NCBI RefSeq assembly: GCF_900107235.1 | Contig: NZ_FNPF01000017.1 | Location: forward strand, 1-64,000 | Origin: Citreimonas salinaria | GTDB taxonomy: Bacteria; Pseudomonadota; Alphaproteobacteria; Rhodobacterales; Rhodobacteraceae | Direction of reading: 5' to 3' | Length of the DNA: 64,000 bases | Notes under the pieces: generated by a model | The model's database searches: none | Told to the model about the DNA's origin: nothing | What the model saw: only the letters and a program-made list of their open reading frames with translations | Shown: positions 1,801-24,251 of the stretch, one piece after another | How the letters are laid out: each line of letters opens with the position of its first letter | How positions within the stretch are numbered: position 1 is the stretch's first letter | Program-made: the position numbers and the translations under genes

Positions 1801-2964
1801 ATGGGGAAGCTGACAGCGCGGAAGGTTGCGACGCTCAAGGACCCGGGCTTCTACGGTGATGGCGGCTGCTTGTATCTCGCGGTGGGCGAGGGGAACTCGA
1901 AGTCATGGGTTCTGCGGACCGTTGTTCACGGAAAGCGCCGCGATTTTGGCCTCGGTTCGGTGAGCCTCGTATCCTTGGCTGAGGCACGCGACCTTGCGGC
2001 CGAGCTGCGCAAGGTTGCGCGTAAGGGTGGCGACCCGGCGCTGCACCTGAAGCGTGAGACACTGACCTTCGAGCAAGCGACCCGCCGGGTGCACGAACAA
2101 CTGAGCGAGTCCTTTGACAGCGAAGGGCACGCTGCCCGCTGGATAGCCGGGATGGAGATACACGCGTTCCCGAAACTCGGGGACCGCCCGATAGACACGA
2201 TCCACAGCCCGGATATTCTCGAAGTCCTTTCCGTAATCTGGGTGGGTAAGCACGATACTGCCAGGCGCATAAAACAACGTATGAGCAACGTTTTCAGTTG
2301 GGCAATACAAGCCAAACATTACCCGCACCCCAACCCGGTTGCCGAGATTGAGACCGGGCTTCCGAGGATCAAGCACCAGGCTGAACACATGGAGGCTATC
2401 GACTGGCGAGAGGTCCAGGAATTTATGGTCAAACTGAAGCGCAGGGAAGGTAACGCGGCTCGCTGCTTGGAATTCATTCTGCACACGCTGGCGAGATCCA
2501 GAGAGGCACGTGAAGCGTGCTGGGACGAGATCAATGGCCAACTCTGGTTGGTGCCTCCGTCTCGGATGAAGCGTCGCATCGGGCACCGGGTTCCCTTGTC
2601 GTCCGGCGCTCTGGACGTGCTTGAGCGAATGAACGGGTTCGGGAGAGAACTGATCTTCCCTAGCGCGCATTCCAGGCGGGCAGGTGAACAACCCCTGTCT
2701 GATACAGTGTTCAAGGCGCTGATGAAGCGGATGGGGTACCCCGACCTCACTACGCACGGCTTTCGCAGCACCTTCCGCGACTGGTGTTCGGAGTACGCGA
2801 GGGTCGAGCGCGAGGTCGCTGAAGCAGCACTGGCCCACGCATACGGGGACAAGACAGAGCGCGCCTATGCGCGTTCGGATCTCTTCGAGCGGCGCGTCGA
2901 GATCATGGAGTTGTGGTCGTCCTTCCTCTCGGGCCAGGATGCCAAGGTGGTGAAGCTTGCCTAG
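1801..2964 (+). CDS. int: Tyrosine-type site-specific integrase (P4 family)
   Basis: A 387-aa protein of the usual length for P4/DUF4102-type integrases. Residues 1-85 are the arm-binding DUF4102-like domain (LTARKVATL, GCLYLAV, FGLGSVSLVSLAEARD). The core-binding region follows at about 88-185, and the catalytic domain at about 200-370 has the first Arg near 232-234, H319-x-x-R322 in THGFRSTFRDW, His346 and the nucleophile Tyr356 in ERAYARSD. It should catalyse integration into, and with an AlpA-type partner excision from, the tRNA-Met 3' end. It starts 162 bp inside the left att core, and the AlpA-like gene follows. The catalytic set looks complete, so the element may still be mobile. Confidence 0.93.
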   Translation: MGKLTARKVATLKDPGFYGDGGCLYLAVGEGNSKSWVLRTVVHGKRRDFGLGSVSLVSLAEARDLAAELRKVARKGGDPALHLKRETLTFEQATRRVHEQLSESFDSEGHAARWIAGMEIHAFPKLGDRPIDTIHSPDILEVLSVIWVGKHDTARRIKQRMSNVFSWAIQAKHYPHPNPVAEIETGLPRIKHQAEHMEAIDWREVQEFMVKLKRREGNAARCLEFILHTLARSREAREACWDEINGQLWLVPPSRMKRRIGHRVPLSSGALDVLERMNGFGRELIFPSAHSRRAGEQPLSDTVFKALMKRMGYPDLTTHGFRSTFRDWCSEYARVEREVAEAALAHAYGDKTERAYARSDLFERRVEIMELWSSFLSGQDAKVVKLA

Positions 2965-3034
2965 TCCGCGGTCCTTAAACTTCGGCGAAACCGCGGCGGT
3001 TTATTCCTCCCATCAGTCATTGGAAGGAATAAGG

Positions 3035-3235
3035 ATGATTGATCGAATACTGCGCCGACCGGAAGTCGAGGAAGCTGTCGGACTTAGCCGGGCCACCTTG
3101 TACAGAATGATCGAGCGCGGGGATTTTCCGCGGCCAACCAAGCTCGGCGAGCGAGCCGTCGGATGGCGGGAAAGTGCCGTTGAAGTGTGGCTGCATCGAA
3201 GATCCTTGGAAACGAACGCGAGTGAAGGCAAATGA
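3035..3235 (+). CDS. AlpA-like MerR-type HTH regulator / excisionase candidate
   Basis: A 66-aa protein (MIDRILRRPEVEEAVGLSRA...) with the AlpA/Vis winged-HTH pattern: LRRPEVEEAVGLSRATLYR, then IERGDFPRPTKLGERAVGW and a C-terminal helix. The ATG at 3035 is chosen because a GGAAGGAATAAGG Shine-Dalgarno region directly precedes it; the longer frame opening at 2957 lacks this. It lies directly after int, where P4-like elements encode the regulator that turns on integrase or acts as directionality factor. It overlaps the next gene by ATGA, so the two are translationally coupled. Confidence 0.85.
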   Translation: MIDRILRRPEVEEAVGLSRATLYRMIERGDFPRPTKLGERAVGWRESAVEVWLHRRSLETNASEGK

Positions 3236-3921
3236 AGCCGATAGATCCCGCCAGTGCCATAGATGCTGCGAAGTCATTTTTCGGACCCATTGAGGGCGAG
3301 CCGCGAGTTCCCGCCACCGCCGTGCTTCTCAGGGAAGTCATCCACGCCCTAGAGATAATGTGGGGGTACAGCGATCAAGAGCTGCAGTATGGGCACGACC
3401 CTAGAGGCGCATATGCAGTGCTCCATGCTCTAAAAAACGCCGACCTTGTCGCACGCGTTTACGACCCTGGACATCCAGTGGCCGAATTCCCGGTAATCCC
3501 GACTCCGTCGTGGCCGCATCCTCCTGACGAAGCTCCGCGCTCTTTCATGGAGCCCGATGACGCCGACGCAGTGAGCCCTGTATCTAGCTATTGGATATCG
3601 ACCATCGAATATGACCAGGACTGCCGCGGCTACGTCGGACACCTCCCCGTTGTGCCGAGAGAGGAAGCGGAGGCATGGCTGAAGCGCGCTGGCGCATCAC
3701 GGAATTACCCCGCCATTCCAAGGCGGCTAACTCATGCAGACACCGAAGCGGTGTTCCTAGAGTACGTTGCTGAGTTCAATAACGCCACGCCACCCACTCA
3801 GGCGGAGCGTAAAGTTTGGCGTCAGCGGCACGGAATAGGGCGGGATCGTCTAAGTGAGCTGGTGAAAGACTTGGCTCCGGAGGAATGGAGTCGGCCCGGA
3901 CGGCGCAAAACCAAGATTTAA
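3232..3921 (+). CDS. Hypothetical protein, coupled to AlpA-like gene
   Basis: A 229-aa protein with no domain I recognise. The N-terminal half (about 20-75) is helical and contains the segment ALEIMWGYSDQELQYG. The middle is Pro-rich (PVIPTPSWPHPPDEAP). The C-terminal part (about 185-229) is basic and helix-turn-helix-like (QAERKVWRQRHGIGRDRLSE), followed by an RPGRRK tail. Its start overlaps the AlpA-like gene stop by ATGA, so it is co-translated with the regulator. A DNA-binding or regulatory role is possible from the basic tail and position; nothing stronger can be said. Confidence 0.6.
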   Translation: MKPIDPASAIDAAKSFFGPIEGEPRVPATAVLLREVIHALEIMWGYSDQELQYGHDPRGAYAVLHALKNADLVARVYDPGHPVAEFPVIPTPSWPHPPDEAPRSFMEPDDADAVSPVSSYWISTIEYDQDCRGYVGHLPVVPREEAEAWLKRAGASRNYPAIPRRLTHADTEAVFLEYVAEFNNATPPTQAERKVWRQRHGIGRDRLSELVKDLAPEEWSRPGRRKTKI

Positions 3922-4841: not shown

Positions 4842-5041
4842 CGCACGTCGCGACCATCCGGAAGAACCAGCGCGAGGAAGTCCGCGTGTCCGTGGACGAG
4901 TTCAAGGGGCGGAAGCTGCTGAACGTGCGCGTCTGGTTCGAGGCTGAGGCCGGGGAGTATCGCCCCGGCAAGCAGGGCATTGCCCTTCGCCTGGACCTAG
5001 TCCCCGAACTCGTCGCCGCTATCCAAGAGGTGGGGCAATGA
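4838..5041 (+). CDS. PC4/p15-type ssDNA-binding protein
   Basis: A 67-aa protein that is almost only the PC4 (transcriptional coactivator p15) domain: IRKNQREEVRVSVDEFKGRK, then LLNVRVWFEAEAGEYRPGKQGIAL and a C-terminal amphipathic helix (LVPELVAAIQEV). PC4-like proteins in bacteria and phages bind single-stranded or melted DNA as dimers through a curved beta sheet and dimerising helix. It lies between the 38-residue peptide and the Spo11/Topo VI A-like gene with ATGA overlaps. The natural inference is a ssDNA-binding accessory to element replication or recombination. Confidence 0.8.
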   Translation: MTHVATIRKNQREEVRVSVDEFKGRKLLNVRVWFEAEAGEYRPGKQGIALRLDLVPELVAAIQEVGQ

Positions 5042-6000
5042 GCGAAGTTACAGCCAGCCGTAAAATCCCGATCAGCGGAAATGAGGCTGGCCGTAAAACC
5101 GGCCGGAACCGCGGGTATATCCCGTCCTACGCTCCGCAGGCTAAGACCCGTGAGCTGCTGGATCAGGCGCAGGCGGTCCTTGCCGAGTACCGGGAATACT
5201 GGCCCCTGACCTGTCGGCAAATCTTCTACCGGATGGTCGGTGCGCACGGCTATGACAAGACGGAGGCCGCCTACGGGCGGCTCTGTCACCACCTCGCCAA
5301 TGCGCGCCGCGGCAAGCTGATCCCATTCGACGCGATCCGCGATGATGGCGTTACGACGTTCAGCGTGGGGCACTTCGATGACCGCGACGCGTTCCTGCGC
5401 CATGTCCGCCGCCTCGGTGAAGGCTACAAGCGCAACAGGCTGACGGCGCAGGGCGTCCACATCGAGGTCTGGTGCGAGGCGGCCGGGATGCTGCCCCAGC
5501 TGCACCGGGTGGCCGAATGGTACTCCGTGCCCGTGTATTCGTCCGGAGGCTTCGACAGCCTGACCGCGAAGAAGCGGCTGGCGGATCGCATCTGCCAGAT
5601 GGAGAAGGAAGCTGTCATCCTGCACCTCGGGGACTATGACCCCAGCGGGGTTTCCATTTTCGACAGCGTGGCGGCGGACGTGACAGCGTTCGTCATGGCG
5701 GACCGACCCCACGGGCTGGTCAGTGCCGAGTTCGATCGCGTGGCGCTGACCCGTGAACAGGTGCAGGCCCATAACCTTCCCACGGCCCCCGCGAAAGCGA
5801 CTGACAGCCGCTCCAAGGCCTGGACGGGCGGCACGTGCCAGCTGGAGGCCCTGCCGCCCAACGTGATCGCGGACATCCTGAAAGAGGCTATCGACCGCCG
5901 GATCGACTGGACGCAGTTCGTTGATGATCTCGATGCCGAGAAGCATGACCGCCTGATGATCTCGGGACTGTTGCCGGCGCCTGATGGGAGGGCCGGCTGA
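5038..6000 (+). CDS. Stand-alone Topo VI A/Spo11-like protein (catalytic Tyr plus TOPRIM)
   Basis: A 320-aa protein. Around residues 55-70, PLTCRQIFYRMVG matches the winged-helix (5Y-CAP) catalytic motif of Topo VI A/Spo11, with candidate nucleophile Tyr64. The C-terminal half has a TOPRIM pattern: Glu147 in VWCEAAGML, then D199-Y-D201 in LHLGDYDPSGVSIF, preceded by VPVYSSGGFDSLTAKKRLA. Topo VI A normally works with the GHKL ATPase subunit B, and no such gene is in this element. It could be a topoisomerase-like transesterase, a nicking or cleaving enzyme at the nearby iterons, or a recombination initiator. It overlaps the PC4-like gene by ATGA and the initiator-like gene by TGATG. Confidence 0.75.
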   Translation: MSEVTASRKIPISGNEAGRKTGRNRGYIPSYAPQAKTRELLDQAQAVLAEYREYWPLTCRQIFYRMVGAHGYDKTEAAYGRLCHHLANARRGKLIPFDAIRDDGVTTFSVGHFDDRDAFLRHVRRLGEGYKRNRLTAQGVHIEVWCEAAGMLPQLHRVAEWYSVPVYSSGGFDSLTAKKRLADRICQMEKEAVILHLGDYDPSGVSIFDSVAADVTAFVMADRPHGLVSAEFDRVALTREQVQAHNLPTAPAKATDSRSKAWTGGTCQLEALPPNVIADILKEAIDRRIDWTQFVDDLDAEKHDRLMISGLLPAPDGRAG

Positions 6001-6503
6001 TGGGACGTGACAAGCGCAATGAGCAGCGGCAAGAGCATTTCACGACGCTGACCCGCCCCCTGATGGAGACGGACGCATGGCGGGCGCTCTCGCCCGTCGC
6101 GCAGGCCCTCTATCCGTGGATCAAACTCGAATGGCGCGGCCCGAAGGCGAACAACAACGGGAAGATTAGCCTCAGCGTCAGGCAGGCCAAGGGCCGCATG
6201 GGCATCGGTATCAACACGGCTGCCCGCGCATTCCATGAACTCCAGGCCAAAGGCTTCCTCGTCGTCCGCGAACATGCGTGCCTTGGCATCGGCGGCGAGG
6301 CACGGTCACCGGCGTACGAGATCACCGAGATCCCGCTTCCGCATTCCGACACGAACGTAGGGCGGCGTCTCTACAACGAGTGGCGACCAGGGCGCGATTT
6401 CCCGGTTCTCAAGGCCGCAGCCCACAACCCGAACGGCAGCCGCAAAATTCAGAACCCTGTCATCAAATTGGTGACGTGCCGTCACCAAAACGGTGACGTC
6501 TGA
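6000..6503 (+). CDS. Winged-helix replication-initiator-like protein with iterons in its 3' end
   Basis: A 167-aa basic protein. Residues about 20-100 resemble plasmid/phage initiator-like winged helices (LMETDAWRALSPVAQALYPW, then GKISLSVRQAKGRMGIGI and TAARAFHELQAKGFLVV). Residues about 140-167 (NPVIKLVTCRHQNGDV) are encoded by the first iteron palindromes, so the coding end and the DNA repeats overlap. The gene begins at the last base of the Topo VI A-like stop codon. Such a protein may bind the iterons to start replication and repress its own operon. No primase, helicase or polymerase domain was seen. Confidence 0.68.
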   Translation: MGRDKRNEQRQEHFTTLTRPLMETDAWRALSPVAQALYPWIKLEWRGPKANNNGKISLSVRQAKGRMGIGINTAARAFHELQAKGFLVVREHACLGIGGEARSPAYEITEIPLPHSDTNVGRRLYNEWRPGRDFPVLKAAAHNPNGSRKIQNPVIKLVTCRHQNGDV

Positions 6504-6596
6504 CATGGTTGCCGTCACCAAATCAGTGACGGGGCGTCACCAAATCGGTGACGAACAGGCCCGTTTCAGCACGCTCCACGTCACCATTTCAGTGAC
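6459..6596. repeat. Five 17-bp palindromic iterons, helically phased; candidate origin
   Basis: Units with consensus GTCACCAAATCGGTGAC start at 6459 (GTCATCAAATTGGTGAC), 6481, 6514, 6536 and 6580. Each is an inverted repeat (GTCACC/GGTGAC or GTCACC/AGTGAC) around a 5-base centre. Start-to-start distances are 22, 33, 22 and 44 bp, all multiples of 11, so the sites face one side of the helix. The first two lie inside the 3' end of the initiator-like gene and the rest just after its stop. The array fits an iteron origin or an autoregulatory operator cluster. Confidence 0.75.
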
Positions 6597-6683
6597 ATCC
6601 TTACTTACCATACCCACAGGCGCTTGCGCTTACAGGCGACAGGCAGCGACGGCGCATCGTGGGCAACTACACGAGGTGCAAGC

Positions 6684-6908
6684 GTGACCCGCCAGAACCA
6701 ACCCCATACCTCCCGGCGCTTCGACCCCAGCGAACCCGGCGACCGTAACAACGGGCCGGAAACGGACGCCAGCGCCGCACCCCAGATCCACCACGACACG
6801 GACGACGGTCCTAGCGAAGGCGAGAGCCTTCTCGGCTGGGTGTTCCGCAGAGTCCTGGAGCAGGACCAAGCCATGCAGGAAAAGGAGCAGGCCAAATGGC
6901 TCAACTAG
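6684..6908 (+). CDS. Small acidic hypothetical protein
   Basis: About 74 residues from a GTG at 6684 preceded by ACGAGG; the frame is also open from an ATG at 6624. The product is polar and disordered at the start (TRQNQPHTSRRFDPSEPGDR) and ends in a helix (LLGWVFRRVLEQDQAMQEKE). It overlaps the following ejection-like gene by 13 bp, a typical phage arrangement. No family recognised. It could be a small virion or chaperone-like partner of the next two proteins, by position only. Confidence 0.5.
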   Translation: MTRQNQPHTSRRFDPSEPGDRNNGPETDASAAPQIHHDTDDGPSEGESLLGWVFRRVLEQDQAMQEKEQAKWLN

Positions 6909-8311
6909 ACAGCCGCATCCCGATGATGGGGACGCAGCCCAACGTGGTCAACGCGTTGGCAGGCGGTGCGCAAGCCGCAAGCGCCGTCAACATGGTTCGC
7001 CGCCAGAACGCGCTGACAGACCTCTACGAGCAGCAGGGGCCGGGCATCATGTCGGGCGATCCGAACGCCCTCAACGCACTGGCGCAGCTTTCGCCGCAGG
7101 ACGCGCTCGGCATCCAGAACAGCCAGCAGATAATGGATGTACGCGGGCAAGAGAACGCGCGCGCCGACGAACAACTGCAGTTGGCGCGCGAGCAGGCGCG
7201 GCGGCAGGCTGAGGCGCAGGCGGCGCAACTGAGCGCGGCCGAACGCGCCTCGGAACTGGAAGCCCTGCAACGAGGGCTCGCCGGGGCGGCCGCCATCAAC
7301 GACCCACAGCAGTGGGACAGCTACATGCAGTCTCTCGGGCTGGAACAGATGGTCGGCCAGTTCGATAACCGGGAAATCGCCTTCGCGAGCGCCCTGGGCA
7401 TCAAGGATGCGCTGGAGCGGGCGGCGGGGCCGGAAGCCAATTACCAGATCATCGACGGTCAGTACGTGGACACGAACAACCCGCAGGCGGGCGCGCGGGA
7501 TGTGCCCAACCTGCGGCGCGAGGGCGATGCTTCTGAGGCCGAGCAGGAAATCGCCCGCCTCTTGGAGATTCCCGGCGTCAGTCGCGAGACCGCGATCAAG
7601 ATCAAAGAAGGCGTCTACAGGGTCTACACGGACCCGGTTGACCGTACGACCTACATCATCGACCTCGCGACACAGCAGCCCGTGCAGATCATCGGGGCAG
7701 ATGGTTCGCCGACCGGTGGCTCTCAGCCGGCAGCGCCGACCGGGCAAATGCAGCCAGGACAGCAGCCGGCCGCGCAGCCGCAAAACGGGTTGTCTTTCGG
7801 GCAGGACATTCCGACAGGCGGCGAAAGCGCGTTCGGCCTCACGGGCCTCGGGACCAACATCGCAAACACCGTCTCGGACGCCGTGGGCATGGGCGAAGTC
7901 TTTCCGAACGCAGCAGAGCAGCAGCGGTTCTTCCGGCTCATGGAAGAGGACCTGCTTGTGGATCTGTCACAGGCCTACGGTCGCCAGCCGGCTCAGCAGC
8001 TCATGGAACGCATCCGGGCACTCCTGCCGCAAGCCGGTACGCTTGAGGGCGCCGACCGTGCGCGTGGTGAACTGGCCCAGCTGCGGCGCCGGTTCAGCCG
8101 TGATCTGGAGCAGGCTGAATCCACGCTCCGCGCGCCAGGGCGGCGCATGAAGCCAGAAGACCGGGACGCGCTGCGCAATCAGGTTGGCGGTCTGCAATCT
8201 ACCCTTGGTACGATTGACGAGGCGCTGACCCGTCTCGGGGCGGCCCCGGATCAACAAGGCTCGACCGGGGGCACAACATCCAGCGGCGTGCAGTGGAGTG
8301 TCGAGCAATGA
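6896..8311 (+). CDS. Phage virion/ejection-like protein (471 aa)
   Basis: A Gln/Ala-rich protein. The N-terminus (MAQLDSRIPMMGTQPNVVNA) with repeated QNALTDLY, GDPNALNALAQLSP and DALGIQNSQQ segments is of a type I associate with Rhodobacterales phage and prophage structural genes. A coiled coil rich in Gln/Arg/Ala spans about 85-130. A Pro/Gln-rich linker lies near 275-300, and another helical region near 340-440. The gene overlaps the next one by ATGA. I read it as an internal virion or DNA-ejection component by composition, size and pairing; no catalytic motif is visible. It has no portal, capsid or tail neighbours, unlike its relatives in full phages. Confidence 0.6.
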   Translation: MAQLDSRIPMMGTQPNVVNALAGGAQAASAVNMVRRQNALTDLYEQQGPGIMSGDPNALNALAQLSPQDALGIQNSQQIMDVRGQENARADEQLQLAREQARRQAEAQAAQLSAAERASELEALQRGLAGAAAINDPQQWDSYMQSLGLEQMVGQFDNREIAFASALGIKDALERAAGPEANYQIIDGQYVDTNNPQAGARDVPNLRREGDASEAEQEIARLLEIPGVSRETAIKIKEGVYRVYTDPVDRTTYIIDLATQQPVQIIGADGSPTGGSQPAAPTGQMQPGQQPAAQPQNGLSFGQDIPTGGESAFGLTGLGTNIANTVSDAVGMGEVFPNAAEQQRFFRLMEEDLLVDLSQAYGRQPAQQLMERIRALLPQAGTLEGADRARGELAQLRRRFSRDLEQAESTLRAPGRRMKPEDRDALRNQVGGLQSTLGTIDEALTRLGAAPDQQGSTGGTTSSGVQWSVEQ

Positions 8312-10890
8312 CCGAGCAAATCACCCTGAACATCGAAGGCCAGCGCGTGAAGGTCGGCAGCGACTTTCTCAGCCTTTCCCCGCAAGACCAGGAAGCGACG
8401 GTAGAGGAAATCGCCCGCTCCCTGGACGTGAAGCCGACGCAGGGCGGCGAAGGCTTCATGCCGAACTTGAACCGAGGCATCGCGAACACGGTCGACTTCC
8501 TGAATCCGTTCGACCAGCCGCACGCGCTCAACCCGTTCCCGAACGGTGCCAGCGCACGCGGCGGAATGGAGCGGCTCGGGATTGACGTAGCCGAGGGTGA
8601 ACCCCAGACCGTCATGGAAGGCTTTGCGCGTGGCTCCGGTGAGGCGGCCGCGGCTCTGGTCCCCGTGGCAAAGGGGCTGCAAGCGCTGCGAGGCGTCGGT
8701 GGCGCCGTCGGCCAGTTCGCGGACGACGCCTATCGCTCCCTTCTCAGCGTCACCGGATCGGGCGCGGAAGTCGTGGCGGGCGGTGTGTCGGGCGCGGCTC
8801 AGGAGAAGGCCGAACAGGAAGGCGCCCCGGAGTGGCTGCAAACGACTGCGGCGGTCATGGCACCCATGGGCATCCCGGCGGCTGGAGCGGTCGCACGCGG
8901 CGCTCTAGGGGTGGCGGGCAACATGCCTGTCGGCAGCGCCATCAAGCACACGGGACGCGGCATCGCTGCTGCGGCGGCGCCCTACACCAAGACCGGGGCA
9001 AGGGAAGTTGCGCGGCGCCGTCTCGTGGACCTTTCCGGCGGCACGGAGCGCGCAGCCGAGCTGGGGGAGCGGATCACGCCGGACAACCCCCTGAGCCTGA
9101 CCCCGGCACAGCAGACCGGCGACGAACGGATGATCGGCATCGAGCAACTGGCGGCCAGCCAGGACGGCGCCTTGCGTGAGCGTCTGGACCTGCGCGCAGA
9201 CCAGAGCCGCCGCACCGCGGTCGACCAGATCCAGCAGCCCGGCGACATCCAGGATACGCGGGCCTTCTTCGAGACGCGCCGCCGCGAGTTTGCGAACGAC
9301 CTGCAGGCGCGGGCAGACGACATCATCGCCACCACCACGAGACGGGTGGAGGGCCTCGGGCCGCAGCGCACGGAAAGCGAGAACTCGCTGCAGGTAGCAA
9401 ACCAACTTAACCGGGCGCTGGAAGACGCCACCATGCGCGAGAGGGAGTTGTGGGATGCGGTCCCGCGCGGTGCGCAGGTGCCTGTCCAGACGGCCCGCCA
9501 GACAGCGCAGCGCCTCATTGCCGAGACCCCCCGTGCACAGAGGAACGACGTTCCGCGCGTGCTGTCAGACCTTCTGGGCGAGGGCGGTGAGTTCGGAGAC
9601 GTGGAAACCGTGGCCGAGATGCATGGCCTCTATTCCGAACTGCGCCGGGTGGCTCGGTCGGCCATGTCTGGCAACGACCAGAACAAGAACCGGGCGCGCA
9701 TCGCAAACCAGGCCGCCAACGCGATCCTGCGCGACCTGGGCGCCATCGACGGCACGACGGATATTGGTCGGCAGATCAACGAGGCGCGCGCCTTCTCGTC
9801 GGCCCTGCACGAGACCTTCGACCGCGGCGCAGTCGGCCGGCTGATGAAGCGCACCATCGACGGCGACACGTCGATCGACCCGGAGCTGGCACTGAAGCGC
9901 ACGGTCGGGCGCGGAGGAGCAGAAGGCATGGTCGGATCGCGGCAAATCGAGGAAGGCATCGACTTCAACCGCCCCGATCAGGACGTGCTGCCGCAGGAAA
10001 GCGAGTTCGTCGGCGACTACATCCGCGACCGATTCCAGCAGGCCGCCATCACGCCAACGGGCGAGTTCAGCAACCGGGCGGCCGCCAAGTTCCTGCGCGA
10101 CAATCGCGAACTTCTGGACAGATACCCCGGATTGAAGGACGATGTGTCCGCAGCGGTGAAAGCAAGGGACGATGCGGATGCATTCGCGCAACGTGTCACG
10201 GCCCGCATTCAGAGGCTCGAGAACGCCCGGCTCTCTGCCGGCGCGGCCCTGCTGAATGGTTCGCCGGATCAGGCACTCCGGGCGTTCACCGAGGCGCGGA
10301 ACCCGGTCAGGGCCGCGCGGAGTATCGTCAACGAAGCGCGTAAAGACCCCTCTGGGCAGGCTCTTTCTGGTCTTAAAAGCGTTCTTTCTCGTGAACTGAT
10401 CGACGGGAGCGCCACGACCGGCGAGGGCGTTCTGAAAGCGCTGGAGAATCCGAAGCTGAAGGCCGCGCTTCGCCAGGTCTTCACCGAGCCGGCACTGTCC
10501 CGCCTGCGCAGGATCGGCCACCAGCTTGCGAAGCTGGACAACGCCCGGAAGCCCGTACCGTCCGTGGGCAGCAGCCTTTCCGGGGCATCGACAAACCAGA
10601 TGATCGAGACCGTCGCGAGGATCAAGGCGGCGCAGCTTGGCGGCAATCTGTCCAGCGGCGGGAACATGGGCGGCAGCCTGCAGAGCGCGAACATTCTGTC
10701 GAGCCGGGTTCGTGACGTCCTGGGGCGGCTGACCGCGGACAGGGCGTCGCAGATGCTGGCCGATGCGGTCGAGGACCCGGAACTGTTCAAAGCGCTCCTG
10801 ACCAACCCGTCCATGAAGCTGACGCCGCAGAAGGCCAACCGCCTGTTGCCCTACCTGATTGGCGGCGGCGTTGCGGCGGGCGTGGAGTGA
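8308..10890 (+). CDS. Large phage ejection/internal-virion-like protein (860 aa)
   Basis: ATG at 8308 overlaps the preceding stop by ATGA. Residues about 110-220 hold Gly/Ala-rich hydrophobic stretches (VAKGLQALRGVGGAVGQF, and MAPMGIPAAGAVARGALGVA), typical of membrane-active internal virion proteins. The remainder is long-helical, with many Arg/Glu/Gln heptads up to a hydrophobic Gly/Ala end (LIGGGVAAGVE). There is no lysozyme, transglycosylase or protease motif. Size, hydrophobic N-terminal third, helical body and pairing with a Gln-rich partner suggest a podovirus-like DNA-ejection protein, which is remarkable in an element lacking capsid genes. The function is inferred. Confidence 0.58.
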   Translation: MTEQITLNIEGQRVKVGSDFLSLSPQDQEATVEEIARSLDVKPTQGGEGFMPNLNRGIANTVDFLNPFDQPHALNPFPNGASARGGMERLGIDVAEGEPQTVMEGFARGSGEAAAALVPVAKGLQALRGVGGAVGQFADDAYRSLLSVTGSGAEVVAGGVSGAAQEKAEQEGAPEWLQTTAAVMAPMGIPAAGAVARGALGVAGNMPVGSAIKHTGRGIAAAAAPYTKTGAREVARRRLVDLSGGTERAAELGERITPDNPLSLTPAQQTGDERMIGIEQLAASQDGALRERLDLRADQSRRTAVDQIQQPGDIQDTRAFFETRRREFANDLQARADDIIATTTRRVEGLGPQRTESENSLQVANQLNRALEDATMRERELWDAVPRGAQVPVQTARQTAQRLIAETPRAQRNDVPRVLSDLLGEGGEFGDVETVAEMHGLYSELRRVARSAMSGNDQNKNRARIANQAANAILRDLGAIDGTTDIGRQINEARAFSSALHETFDRGAVGRLMKRTIDGDTSIDPELALKRTVGRGGAEGMVGSRQIEEGIDFNRPDQDVLPQESEFVGDYIRDRFQQAAITPTGEFSNRAAAKFLRDNRELLDRYPGLKDDVSAAVKARDDADAFAQRVTARIQRLENARLSAGAALLNGSPDQALRAFTEARNPVRAARSIVNEARKDPSGQALSGLKSVLSRELIDGSATTGEGVLKALENPKLKAALRQVFTEPALSRLRRIGHQLAKLDNARKPVPSVGSSLSGASTNQMIETVARIKAAQLGGNLSSGGNMGGSLQSANILSSRVRDVLGRLTADRASQMLADAVEDPELFKALLTNPSMKLTPQKANRLLPYLIGGGVAAGVE

Positions 10891-20551: not shown

Positions 20552-21427
20552 GTGATTGAATGTCTTTCGACAGAAGCCGTAACGTCCCAGAAGCTTTTCG
20601 GGTCAGTGGGGGCGTCACAGTTGGAGTGCGAGGCGGTTTCCTTCGTCAGGAGAGCTGAGAGCGGCCGATCCAGACCCCCTCTAGTAATGGCTGAAATCCC
20701 GGAAGGGGGCACCATCGATGTCTGGATCAAAGCCCCGAAACTGCATGCAACAATCTCCGATGCCGCTCCTGCCCGGGAGTGGATGGCGGCCAGGGTTGCT
20801 GAAGCCCTCGGTCTGCCATGCCCGCCGCCTGTCAAGGTGCGCATCACTCATGAATTCGTGGGTAGCATCCAGGATGCTGAACTCGTAAACGCTTTCAACT
20901 CAGGCGGAGAGGTGGTTTTCGGCGCTCTGCACCTAGGCGCCGGCTGGCGCCGCTGGAGCGAGGCCGCTGGTATGCCTCAAAGGATGCACCAACTTCATGG
21001 GGAAGCCTACCTTTTCGATACGATCATCCAGAACTGGGACAGGCGGATCGCTAATCCTAACATGTTGAAGAAGGGCGACGAGTTCAGACTGATTGACCAT
21101 GAGGAGGCGTTTGTGTCGGCCACGGGGGCCGACGAAGACCGCGACGTAGTGCGCAAGCCATGGGAGGCGTTCGGTATTGACAACTTCATTGCCGGCGACA
21201 TGCAGCATCCGTTCTGGCGACGGCTGAAACCGAGCAATCATGTTGACTTTGGACGAGCGGCCGACGCTTGGAAAAGTCTACCTGACGACACATTTTCCCT
21301 GTATGCGGCCGAAGCATCCGGTGACTGGGGCCGGGCAACTTGTGATAGTATCGCGGCGTACCTGGATGACGCTCGCCGGAACATCGAAGCAGTGGTAGAC
21401 GCTATCCAACGGGCACGAGAGCAGTGA
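20552..21427 (+). CDS. HipA-like kinase (HipA_2 type)
   Basis: A 291-aa protein from a GTG start. The pattern fits the short HipA-like kinase family: VWIKAPK with candidate ATP-binding Lys60, HGEAYLFDTIIQNWDRRIAN with catalytic Asp163, NPNMLKK, and LIDHEEAF with metal-binding Asp182. There is no HipB-like partner; instead the stop overlaps a DUF3037 gene by ATGA, a recurrent pairing. HipA proteins phosphorylate translation targets such as GltX; targets of this subtype are not known. A toxin or defence role on a mobile element is plausible. Confidence 0.8.
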   Translation: MIECLSTEAVTSQKLFGSVGASQLECEAVSFVRRAESGRSRPPLVMAEIPEGGTIDVWIKAPKLHATISDAAPAREWMAARVAEALGLPCPPPVKVRITHEFVGSIQDAELVNAFNSGGEVVFGALHLGAGWRRWSEAAGMPQRMHQLHGEAYLFDTIIQNWDRRIANPNMLKKGDEFRLIDHEEAFVSATGADEDRDVVRKPWEAFGIDNFIAGDMQHPFWRRLKPSNHVDFGRAADAWKSLPDDTFSLYAAEASGDWGRATCDSIAAYLDDARRNIEAVVDAIQRAREQ

Positions 21428-22236
21428 ACAAGCACGCTTACACATACTCGGTTCTACAGTACCGCCATGACGTCTGGTCTGGCGAATGTATGAATGTGGG
21501 CGTTCTCGTGTACTGCCCAGACTTGGGTTACCTGAAGCTGCAGACACGCACAGGCGGATCGCGACTGAGTAATGCGTTCCCCGGAATCAATCGAAAAGCC
21601 CTTCTCCACGACATGCGTGAACTTGAGCGCTGGTTCGATAGGAAGTGCAGTGAGCGCGGGTCGGAGTGGATGTGGCGCTCGGCGCACGACGTCGGCCTGC
21701 GACTTCTCGGGGATGACGACAGTAGCTTCCGCTGGCACCTGAATGGGACTGGAGTGACAAACGATCCCGCCTCTACCCAAGATCAGCTGTTTCATCGTTT
21801 TGTGACTCAACACGATCCCGAGCCTGGGCGGGTCCCTCGCACTGACGAACAAGTCTTTGAAGTTGTGAGGAGCAAGCTGAAAACGTCCGAGATCCTGTCT
21901 CGAATGGAACCGCACACGGTTCGAAGCAACTATTCCGAGTTCACCTTCGAGCATTCCTTTAGGAATGGGCGGTGGCATTGCATTCAAGCAATTTCTTTAG
22001 ACTCGGCGGACGCCGAGCAGATGCAAAGGAAAGCTGAGCGTTGGGCTGGCGTTCTTGTCGGCATATCCGAGGCTCCGGAGCCCTTCACGGTTTACATGGT
22101 TACAGGGCGGCCTACGAAGGCCGACCTAACCAAACAATATGAACGTATGATGGAGTTACTGCGGCACGCTCCAACGAAGCCCCTGGTCCTCGATGAGGAA
22201 GAAGCGGATGAAATTGGCAGGCGCATAATCGGCTAA
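21424..22236 (+). CDS. DUF3037-domain protein, partner of HipA-like kinase
   Basis: A 270-aa protein. The N-terminus (YTYSVLQYRHDVWSGECMNV, then GVLVYCPDLGYL) is the DUF3037 signature, and RLSNAFPGINRKALLHDMR continues it. The C-terminal part has no recognised motif. Its start overlaps the HipA-like gene stop by ATGA, so the two are made together. DUF3037 proteins commonly accompany HipA_2 kinases, suggesting a two-gene system (kinase plus modulator). Which is toxic and which protective is unknown. Confidence 0.82.
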   Translation: MNKHAYTYSVLQYRHDVWSGECMNVGVLVYCPDLGYLKLQTRTGGSRLSNAFPGINRKALLHDMRELERWFDRKCSERGSEWMWRSAHDVGLRLLGDDDSSFRWHLNGTGVTNDPASTQDQLFHRFVTQHDPEPGRVPRTDEQVFEVVRSKLKTSEILSRMEPHTVRSNYSEFTFEHSFRNGRWHCIQAISLDSADAEQMQRKAERWAGVLVGISEAPEPFTVYMVTGRPTKADLTKQYERMMELLRHAPTKPLVLDEEEADEIGRRIIG

Positions 22237-24173: not shown

Positions 24174-24189
24174 ATGGTAGCGGAGGAGG
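24174..24189. repeat. att core, right copy, within tRNA-Met 3' end
   Basis: ATGGTAGCGGAGGAGG; reversed it is CCTCCTCCGCTACCAT, covering part of the T arm, the acceptor 3' strand and the encoded CCA of tRNA-Met. Identical to 1624-1639. The complete tRNA is on this side, so the element lies downstream of it. Confidence 0.88.
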
Positions 24190-24251
24190 GACTTGAACCC
24201 CCGACACGCGGATTATGATTCCGCTGCTCTAACCAACTGAGCTACTCCGCC
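24175..24251 (-). tRNA. tRNA-Met (CAT), elongator type
   Basis: The minus strand reads GGCGGAGTAGCTCAGTTGG at the 5' end, the anticodon stem GCGGA-ATCATAA-TCCGC with anticodon CAT, a T arm containing GTTCAAGTC, and acceptor CTCCGCT followed by A and CCA. Length 77 nt with CCA encoded. The G1-T72 pair and arm sequences fit elongator tRNA-Met, not initiator; a lysidine-type tRNA-Ile2 cannot be fully excluded. It is the integration target of the adjacent element. Confidence 0.93.

Follow-up and report, generated by a model that had tools for sequence, protein, structure and literature searches.

The window, the whole 64-kb stretch of Citreimonas salinaria DNA that was analysed, contains an integrated prophage- or satellite-like element of about 22.5 kb that extends from an integrase gene to a tRNA-Met gene. 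The candidate attachment sites are copies of an exact 16-bp repeat read on the forward strand, the left one (ATGGTAGCGGAGGAGG) at positions 1624–1639 and the right one at 24174–24189, at the 3′ end of tRNA-Met (24175–24251, reverse strand). Immediately to the left of the left candidate, a large ORF resembling serine recombinases (402–1583) probably represents a separate mobile element. The left end of the element encodes a tyrosine integrase (1801–2964, forward strand; Pfam Arm-DNA-bind_3, Phage_int_M, and Phage_integrase) and an AlpA-type regulator (2957–3235, forward strand; PF05930, E=3e-19). A gene with a PHROG 'DNA topoisomerase' match (5038–6000, forward strand; phrog_6247, E=3e-38; no Pfam match) is present in only 14 of the 64 related loci described below and is located directly upstream of the gene for a 167 aa winged-helix (wHTH) protein (6000–6503, forward strand), which is a probable replication initiator as judged from its fold, the PHROG matches of its relatives, and covariation. 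The overall order is integrase, AlpA-type regulator, initiator, an array of palindromic sites, and variable packaging or cargo genes. To the right of the array, two long ORFs (471 and 865 aa; 6896–10890) have neither a Pfam match at gathering level nor a PHROG match, and a similar pair also follows the array in one relative (L035). Also inside the element, a HipA-like kinase and DUF3037 pair (20552–22236) matches the PADLOC candidate defence system PDC-M66 (A and B).

The array consists of five 17-bp palindromes of the GTCACC-N5-GGTGAC type, to which no strand is assigned: site 1 (6459–6475, GTCATCAAATTGGTGAC), site 2 (6481–6497, GTCACCAAAACGGTGAC), site 3 (6514–6530, GTCACCAAATCAGTGAC), site 4 (6536–6552, GTCACCAAATCGGTGAC), and site 5 (6580–6596, GTCACCATTTCAGTGAC). 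The start-to-start distances of 22, 33, 22, and 44 bp given in the earlier note are exact in the window, and the array overlaps the 3′ end of the wHTH gene as had been described, with sites 1 and 2 inside the last codons and sites 3–5 beyond them. An A-rich head (AAAATTCAGAACCCT; 6444–6458, forward strand; consensus aAAAacAAAAcCCt across the 64 loci) abuts site 1, and a tail (ATCCTTACTTACCA; 6597–6610, forward strand), which is conserved among the loci and is a candidate unwinding element, abuts site 5. When up to one arm mismatch is allowed, the 64-kb window contains no palindromes of this type besides these five, and 100 shuffled windows contain a mean of 0.18 and a maximum of 2. A scan of the whole 4.26-Mb genome found the array motif nowhere else. 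The locus thus meets the criterion for an iteron-type origin, namely, several repeated sites adjoining a putative initiator gene.

Within each palindrome, the two half-sites likewise lie 11 bp from each other, which places all ten half-sites on a single 11-bp lattice, at points 0–3, 5–8, and 11–12, with gaps at points 4, 9, and 10. The mean phase of the sites is sharpest at 11.0 bp rather than 10.5 bp; this statistic is partly circular because the finder restricted the distances, and a free test is provided by a search for palindrome pairs without preset distances in 75 distinct loci. Pairs of similar palindromes are present in 62 of these, with distance peaks at 22, 66, 55, 44, 32, 54, 98, 23, 77, and 121 bp; when a deviation of 1 bp is allowed, multiples of 11 account for 318 of the 336 locus-distance counts. 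The multiples of 11 bp noted earlier are exact in the window, but among relatives they hold only to within ±1 bp. The accompanying idea of helical phasing on one face holds only approximately, because a period of 11.0 bp drifts by about half a turn over 121 bp relative to relaxed B-DNA (10.5 bp), and the sites are thus not strictly on one face. By inference, the bound DNA may be underwound, or the complex may wind around the DNA.

The layout is conserved in relatives of the element. A query with the wHTH protein gave 80 matches in public genome and viral contigs, and further ones were found in whole genomes; the plasmid search yielded a single good relative, from Mesorhizobium, and the INPHARED phage records contained no match to the protein. 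A layout search placed five sites after the same winged-helix gene in 64 distinct loci, almost all from Alphaproteobacteria, with distances of 22/23, 32/33, 22 (in 63 of 64), and 44/45 bp and a total span of 120–123 bp; the window scores 111, compared with 74 for the best shuffled sequence. About ten relatives were missed by the distance-restricted finder, and inspection by eye revealed arrays or remnants in most of them; among those missed, only truncated loci (for example, L069) lack an array. Distant homologues outside the family, one of them from another class, also have an array, with other palindromes. In the same genome as one locus, a second, distant wHTH copy (L121/L138; G000:C35:15880-16260) is accompanied by array-like GTCACA...TGTGC repeats and a different tail (CTATACATCTAGCCATAGG).

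The flanks of the array are constant, with AAAA.AAAACCCT immediately before site 1 and ACATCCTTA-n-TACCA immediately after site 5; the tail ATCCTTA-n-TACCA or a close variant is found in 63 of the 64 loci, and the distance between CCTTA and TACCA varies between loci. The spacer between sites 4 and 5 (6553–6579, forward strand) is partly conserved (GaAa.gg.C..tTT), even across loci with different motifs. The stop codon of the wHTH gene lies before the array in nine loci and inside it in most, and in seven loci the gene reads through the entire array, which indicates that the coding sequence does not itself give rise to the layout.

The palindrome itself differs between loci, yet is common to the sites of one locus: arm bases agree at 10.2 of 12 positions within a locus, compared with 7.7 of 12 for the same site between loci. 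The consensus half-sites include GTCACC, GTCCCC, GTCATG, GTCATC, GTTCCC, GTCACG, GTCTCA, GTCCGC, and AAGCCG, as well as GTTCCG, and the pooled site is GTC-NNN-AAAAN-NNN-GAC. The comparison of relatives that had been suggested as a check of the phasing is thus positive, in that the spacing is kept in 64 loci while the motif changes. Unrelated prophage contigs (L010, at 3325–3395 and 5210–5257; L020; L013; L016) carry paired GTCACC-N5-GGTGAC palindromes at a spacing of about 31 bp, in some cases next to a repressor-like gene; the motif is apparently used independently there.

Changes in the motif are accompanied by changes in the wHTH protein. In the AlphaFold2 model of the protein (pLDDT 79.8), residues 71–83 form the recognition helix, the second helix of the helix-turn-helix. 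An unbiased scan of variable wHTH columns against half-site positions gave residue 72 with position 4 (z 15.6), residue 75 with position 3 (z 13.5), and residue 76 with position 6 (z 10.6) as the top covarying pairs, and all three residues are within this helix. All 22 loci with Lys72 have C at half-site position 4, compared with 4 of the 42 loci without Lys72; Gly70 together with Asn72 corresponds to GTCACC in 13 of 14 loci, and Asp72 is found mostly with GTCATG or GTCACG. Residues 70 and 71 belong to the most variable positions of the protein and stand next to nearly invariant neighbours. On a tree for which the helix residues were left out, Lys72 changed at least nine times and the position-4 C at least 13 times, and the nine independent Lys72 contrasts on the best such tree include 7.9 in the same direction and none in the opposite direction (p ~0.008). 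Most of these contrasts sit on weakly supported branches; strongly supported branches alone leave three independent contrasts, all in the expected direction, which are too few for significance. The earlier proposal that coding sequence and iterons evolve together is borne out in that motif and recognition helix change in concert, and this covariation indicates that the neighbouring protein almost certainly reads the array, a conclusion that rests on covariation only, without binding data.

The fold of the protein is closest to those of replication initiators. Foldseek and VIA place the model nearest to RepA_N initiators and the DnaD N-domain: the best structural matches in VIA are the N-domains of RepA_N initiators (4pql, 4pt7, 5kbj, and 4pta; Z 8.7–7.7 over 101–108 residues), and the DnaD N-domain has a Z of 7.4, as do the highest-scoring generic wHTH proteins, only slightly below the RepA_N scores. 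PHROG matches of single relatives are to DnaD-like helicase loader, replication initiation, and O-like families, the last being weak and limited to some relatives. Profile searches detected no RepA_N (PF06970) match at E<=10 in the genome and no Phage_rep_O (PF04492) match at this locus, and no helicase-loading domain is recognizable in the putative initiator.

Among known systems, RepA_N replicons (pSK41, pTZ2162, and PLE RepA) have the N-domain fold nearest to that of the 6000–6503 protein. Their iterons have been described as inverted repeats that meet at a poly-A tract (PMC7145576), a structure that the semi-palindromic GTC-NNN-AAAAN-NNN-GAC site matches, their origin is located within or beside rep, and the DNA-binding domain of RepA of the PLE satellite of Vibrio cholerae covaries with its origin (PMC7145576, PMC8263062). 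The present family differs from them in lacking a Pfam RepA_N match here and, in most members, a C-terminal domain, in its five sites with a fixed 22-33-22-44 layout between a constant head and tail, and in its occurrence mainly in Alphaproteobacteria. The lambda origin, with four iterons in the middle of a gene (PMC7466680), is similar in that a gene with an N-terminal DNA-binding domain carries iterons in its coding region, and in the O-like PHROG matches among relatives, but here neither a Phage_rep_O match nor a long AT-rich tract is found. In phage satellites, the origin is located immediately 3′ of the initiator gene (PMC6092414), and the order int–AlpA–replication gene–origin–packaging or cargo resembles that of PICIs and capsid-forming PICIs; unlike in PICIs, no primase/helicase pri-rep was found here, the iterons do not flank an AT-rich region, and no helper dependence is known. 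No published description of this initiator and origin family was found, and a literature search for such an origin in Rhodobacteraceae likewise gave no result.

The observed features (the sites, their conserved layout, the drift of the motif, its covariation with the recognition helix, the absence of other sites, and the fold similarity) make it probable that the array serves as an iteron-type origin of replication for an integrative prophage or satellite, although replication itself is inferred. Each 17-bp site would be bound by a dimer of the wHTH protein, whose two recognition helices would each read one GTC-NNN half, on either side of the A-tract centre. The fixed layout may set the geometry of a single, presumably cooperatively assembled nucleoprotein complex beside the tail element, where duplex opening would probably occur, and the host replisome would be loaded after excision of the element. 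Support from base composition is limited: AT content rises modestly at the head and tail (57–58%, with 58% for the short tail, compared with 40%). In the core family, a long AT-rich tract is lacking at the arrays, and DnaA boxes near them do not exceed background. Tails are AT-rich in distant relatives. No GC-skew switch is seen at the array.

The earlier note had left open whether the cluster is an origin or an operator. An operator or silencer cluster, at which the wHTH protein would act as a transcription regulator of the downstream cargo or packaging operon or of its own gene, is now an unlikely reading, even though wHTH folds belong mostly to transcription factors, the array is located where early genes give way to downstream modules, TATAAT-like stretches occur in some distant tails, and an unrelated prophage contig (L010) pairs the same palindrome with a repressor-like gene. 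Matches to each locus's own motif outside the arrays number 4 in 853 kb, compared with 5 in shuffles, so that in none of the 64 elements does a site occur above shuffled level upstream of the wHTH gene or elsewhere; a single binding cluster per element is more readily reconciled with a cis-acting origin than with a regulator. Moreover, elements of identical layout have completely different genes downstream of the array, no consistent promoter is found and the CCTTA–TACCA distance is variable, the arrays mostly overlap the 3′ end of the gene, and the best fold matches are initiators. The absence of other sites in any element and the similarity of the fold to initiators thus favour the origin over the operator.

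Two further readings concern packaging and DNA or RNA structure. Terminase genes lie closely downstream of the array in some loci, as portal and capsid genes also do in part of them, and small-terminase site arrays adjoining terS are known, which would suit a packaging-initiation site (cosB- or pac-like) with the wHTH protein as the small terminase subunit. This is highly improbable, because loci such as L005 and L054 have small terminase subunits of their own (PF16677 and PF05119) and yet keep the wHTH gene and array, and because the fetched flank of 32 of the 64 loci shows neither terminase nor portal nor capsid genes; the assignment of the wHTH protein as a small terminase was rejected on account of these separate subunits. 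Palindromes can form hairpins, and some partition sites are palindrome arrays, but a transfer- or partition-like site or a set of structural RNA hairpins is scarcely tenable here: the stem sequence is common to the sites of a locus and tracks the recognition helix of the neighbouring protein, as expected for protein–DNA recognition, an 11-bp period is meaningless for separated RNA hairpins, and the examined genes of the integrated element include no ParA-type partner. An iteron origin remains the preferred interpretation.

More broadly, the evidence is evenly balanced as to whether these loci represent a large, so far unnamed family of initiator and origin pairs carried by prophages and satellites of proteobacteria. 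In such a family, the origin would keep its geometry frozen on an 11-bp lattice, and a readable protein–DNA code (residues 70, 72, 75, and 76 against half-site positions 3–6) would have been rewritten repeatedly. If so, the family would comprise many mutually orthogonal replicons, possibly driven by incompatibility between elements that share a host or by nucleases that target origins, such as those known for PLEs. The loci in any case amount to a natural experiment, since a single probable initiator and origin pair is available in tens of versions with fixed geometry and changing specificity, and the recognition code is directly testable via swaps of residues and half-sites. As probable origins, they would also offer orthogonal replicons for alphaproteobacterial hosts, mark the replication module in otherwise poorly known prophage- or satellite-like elements, and make it possible to predict replication-compatibility groups from sequence alone.
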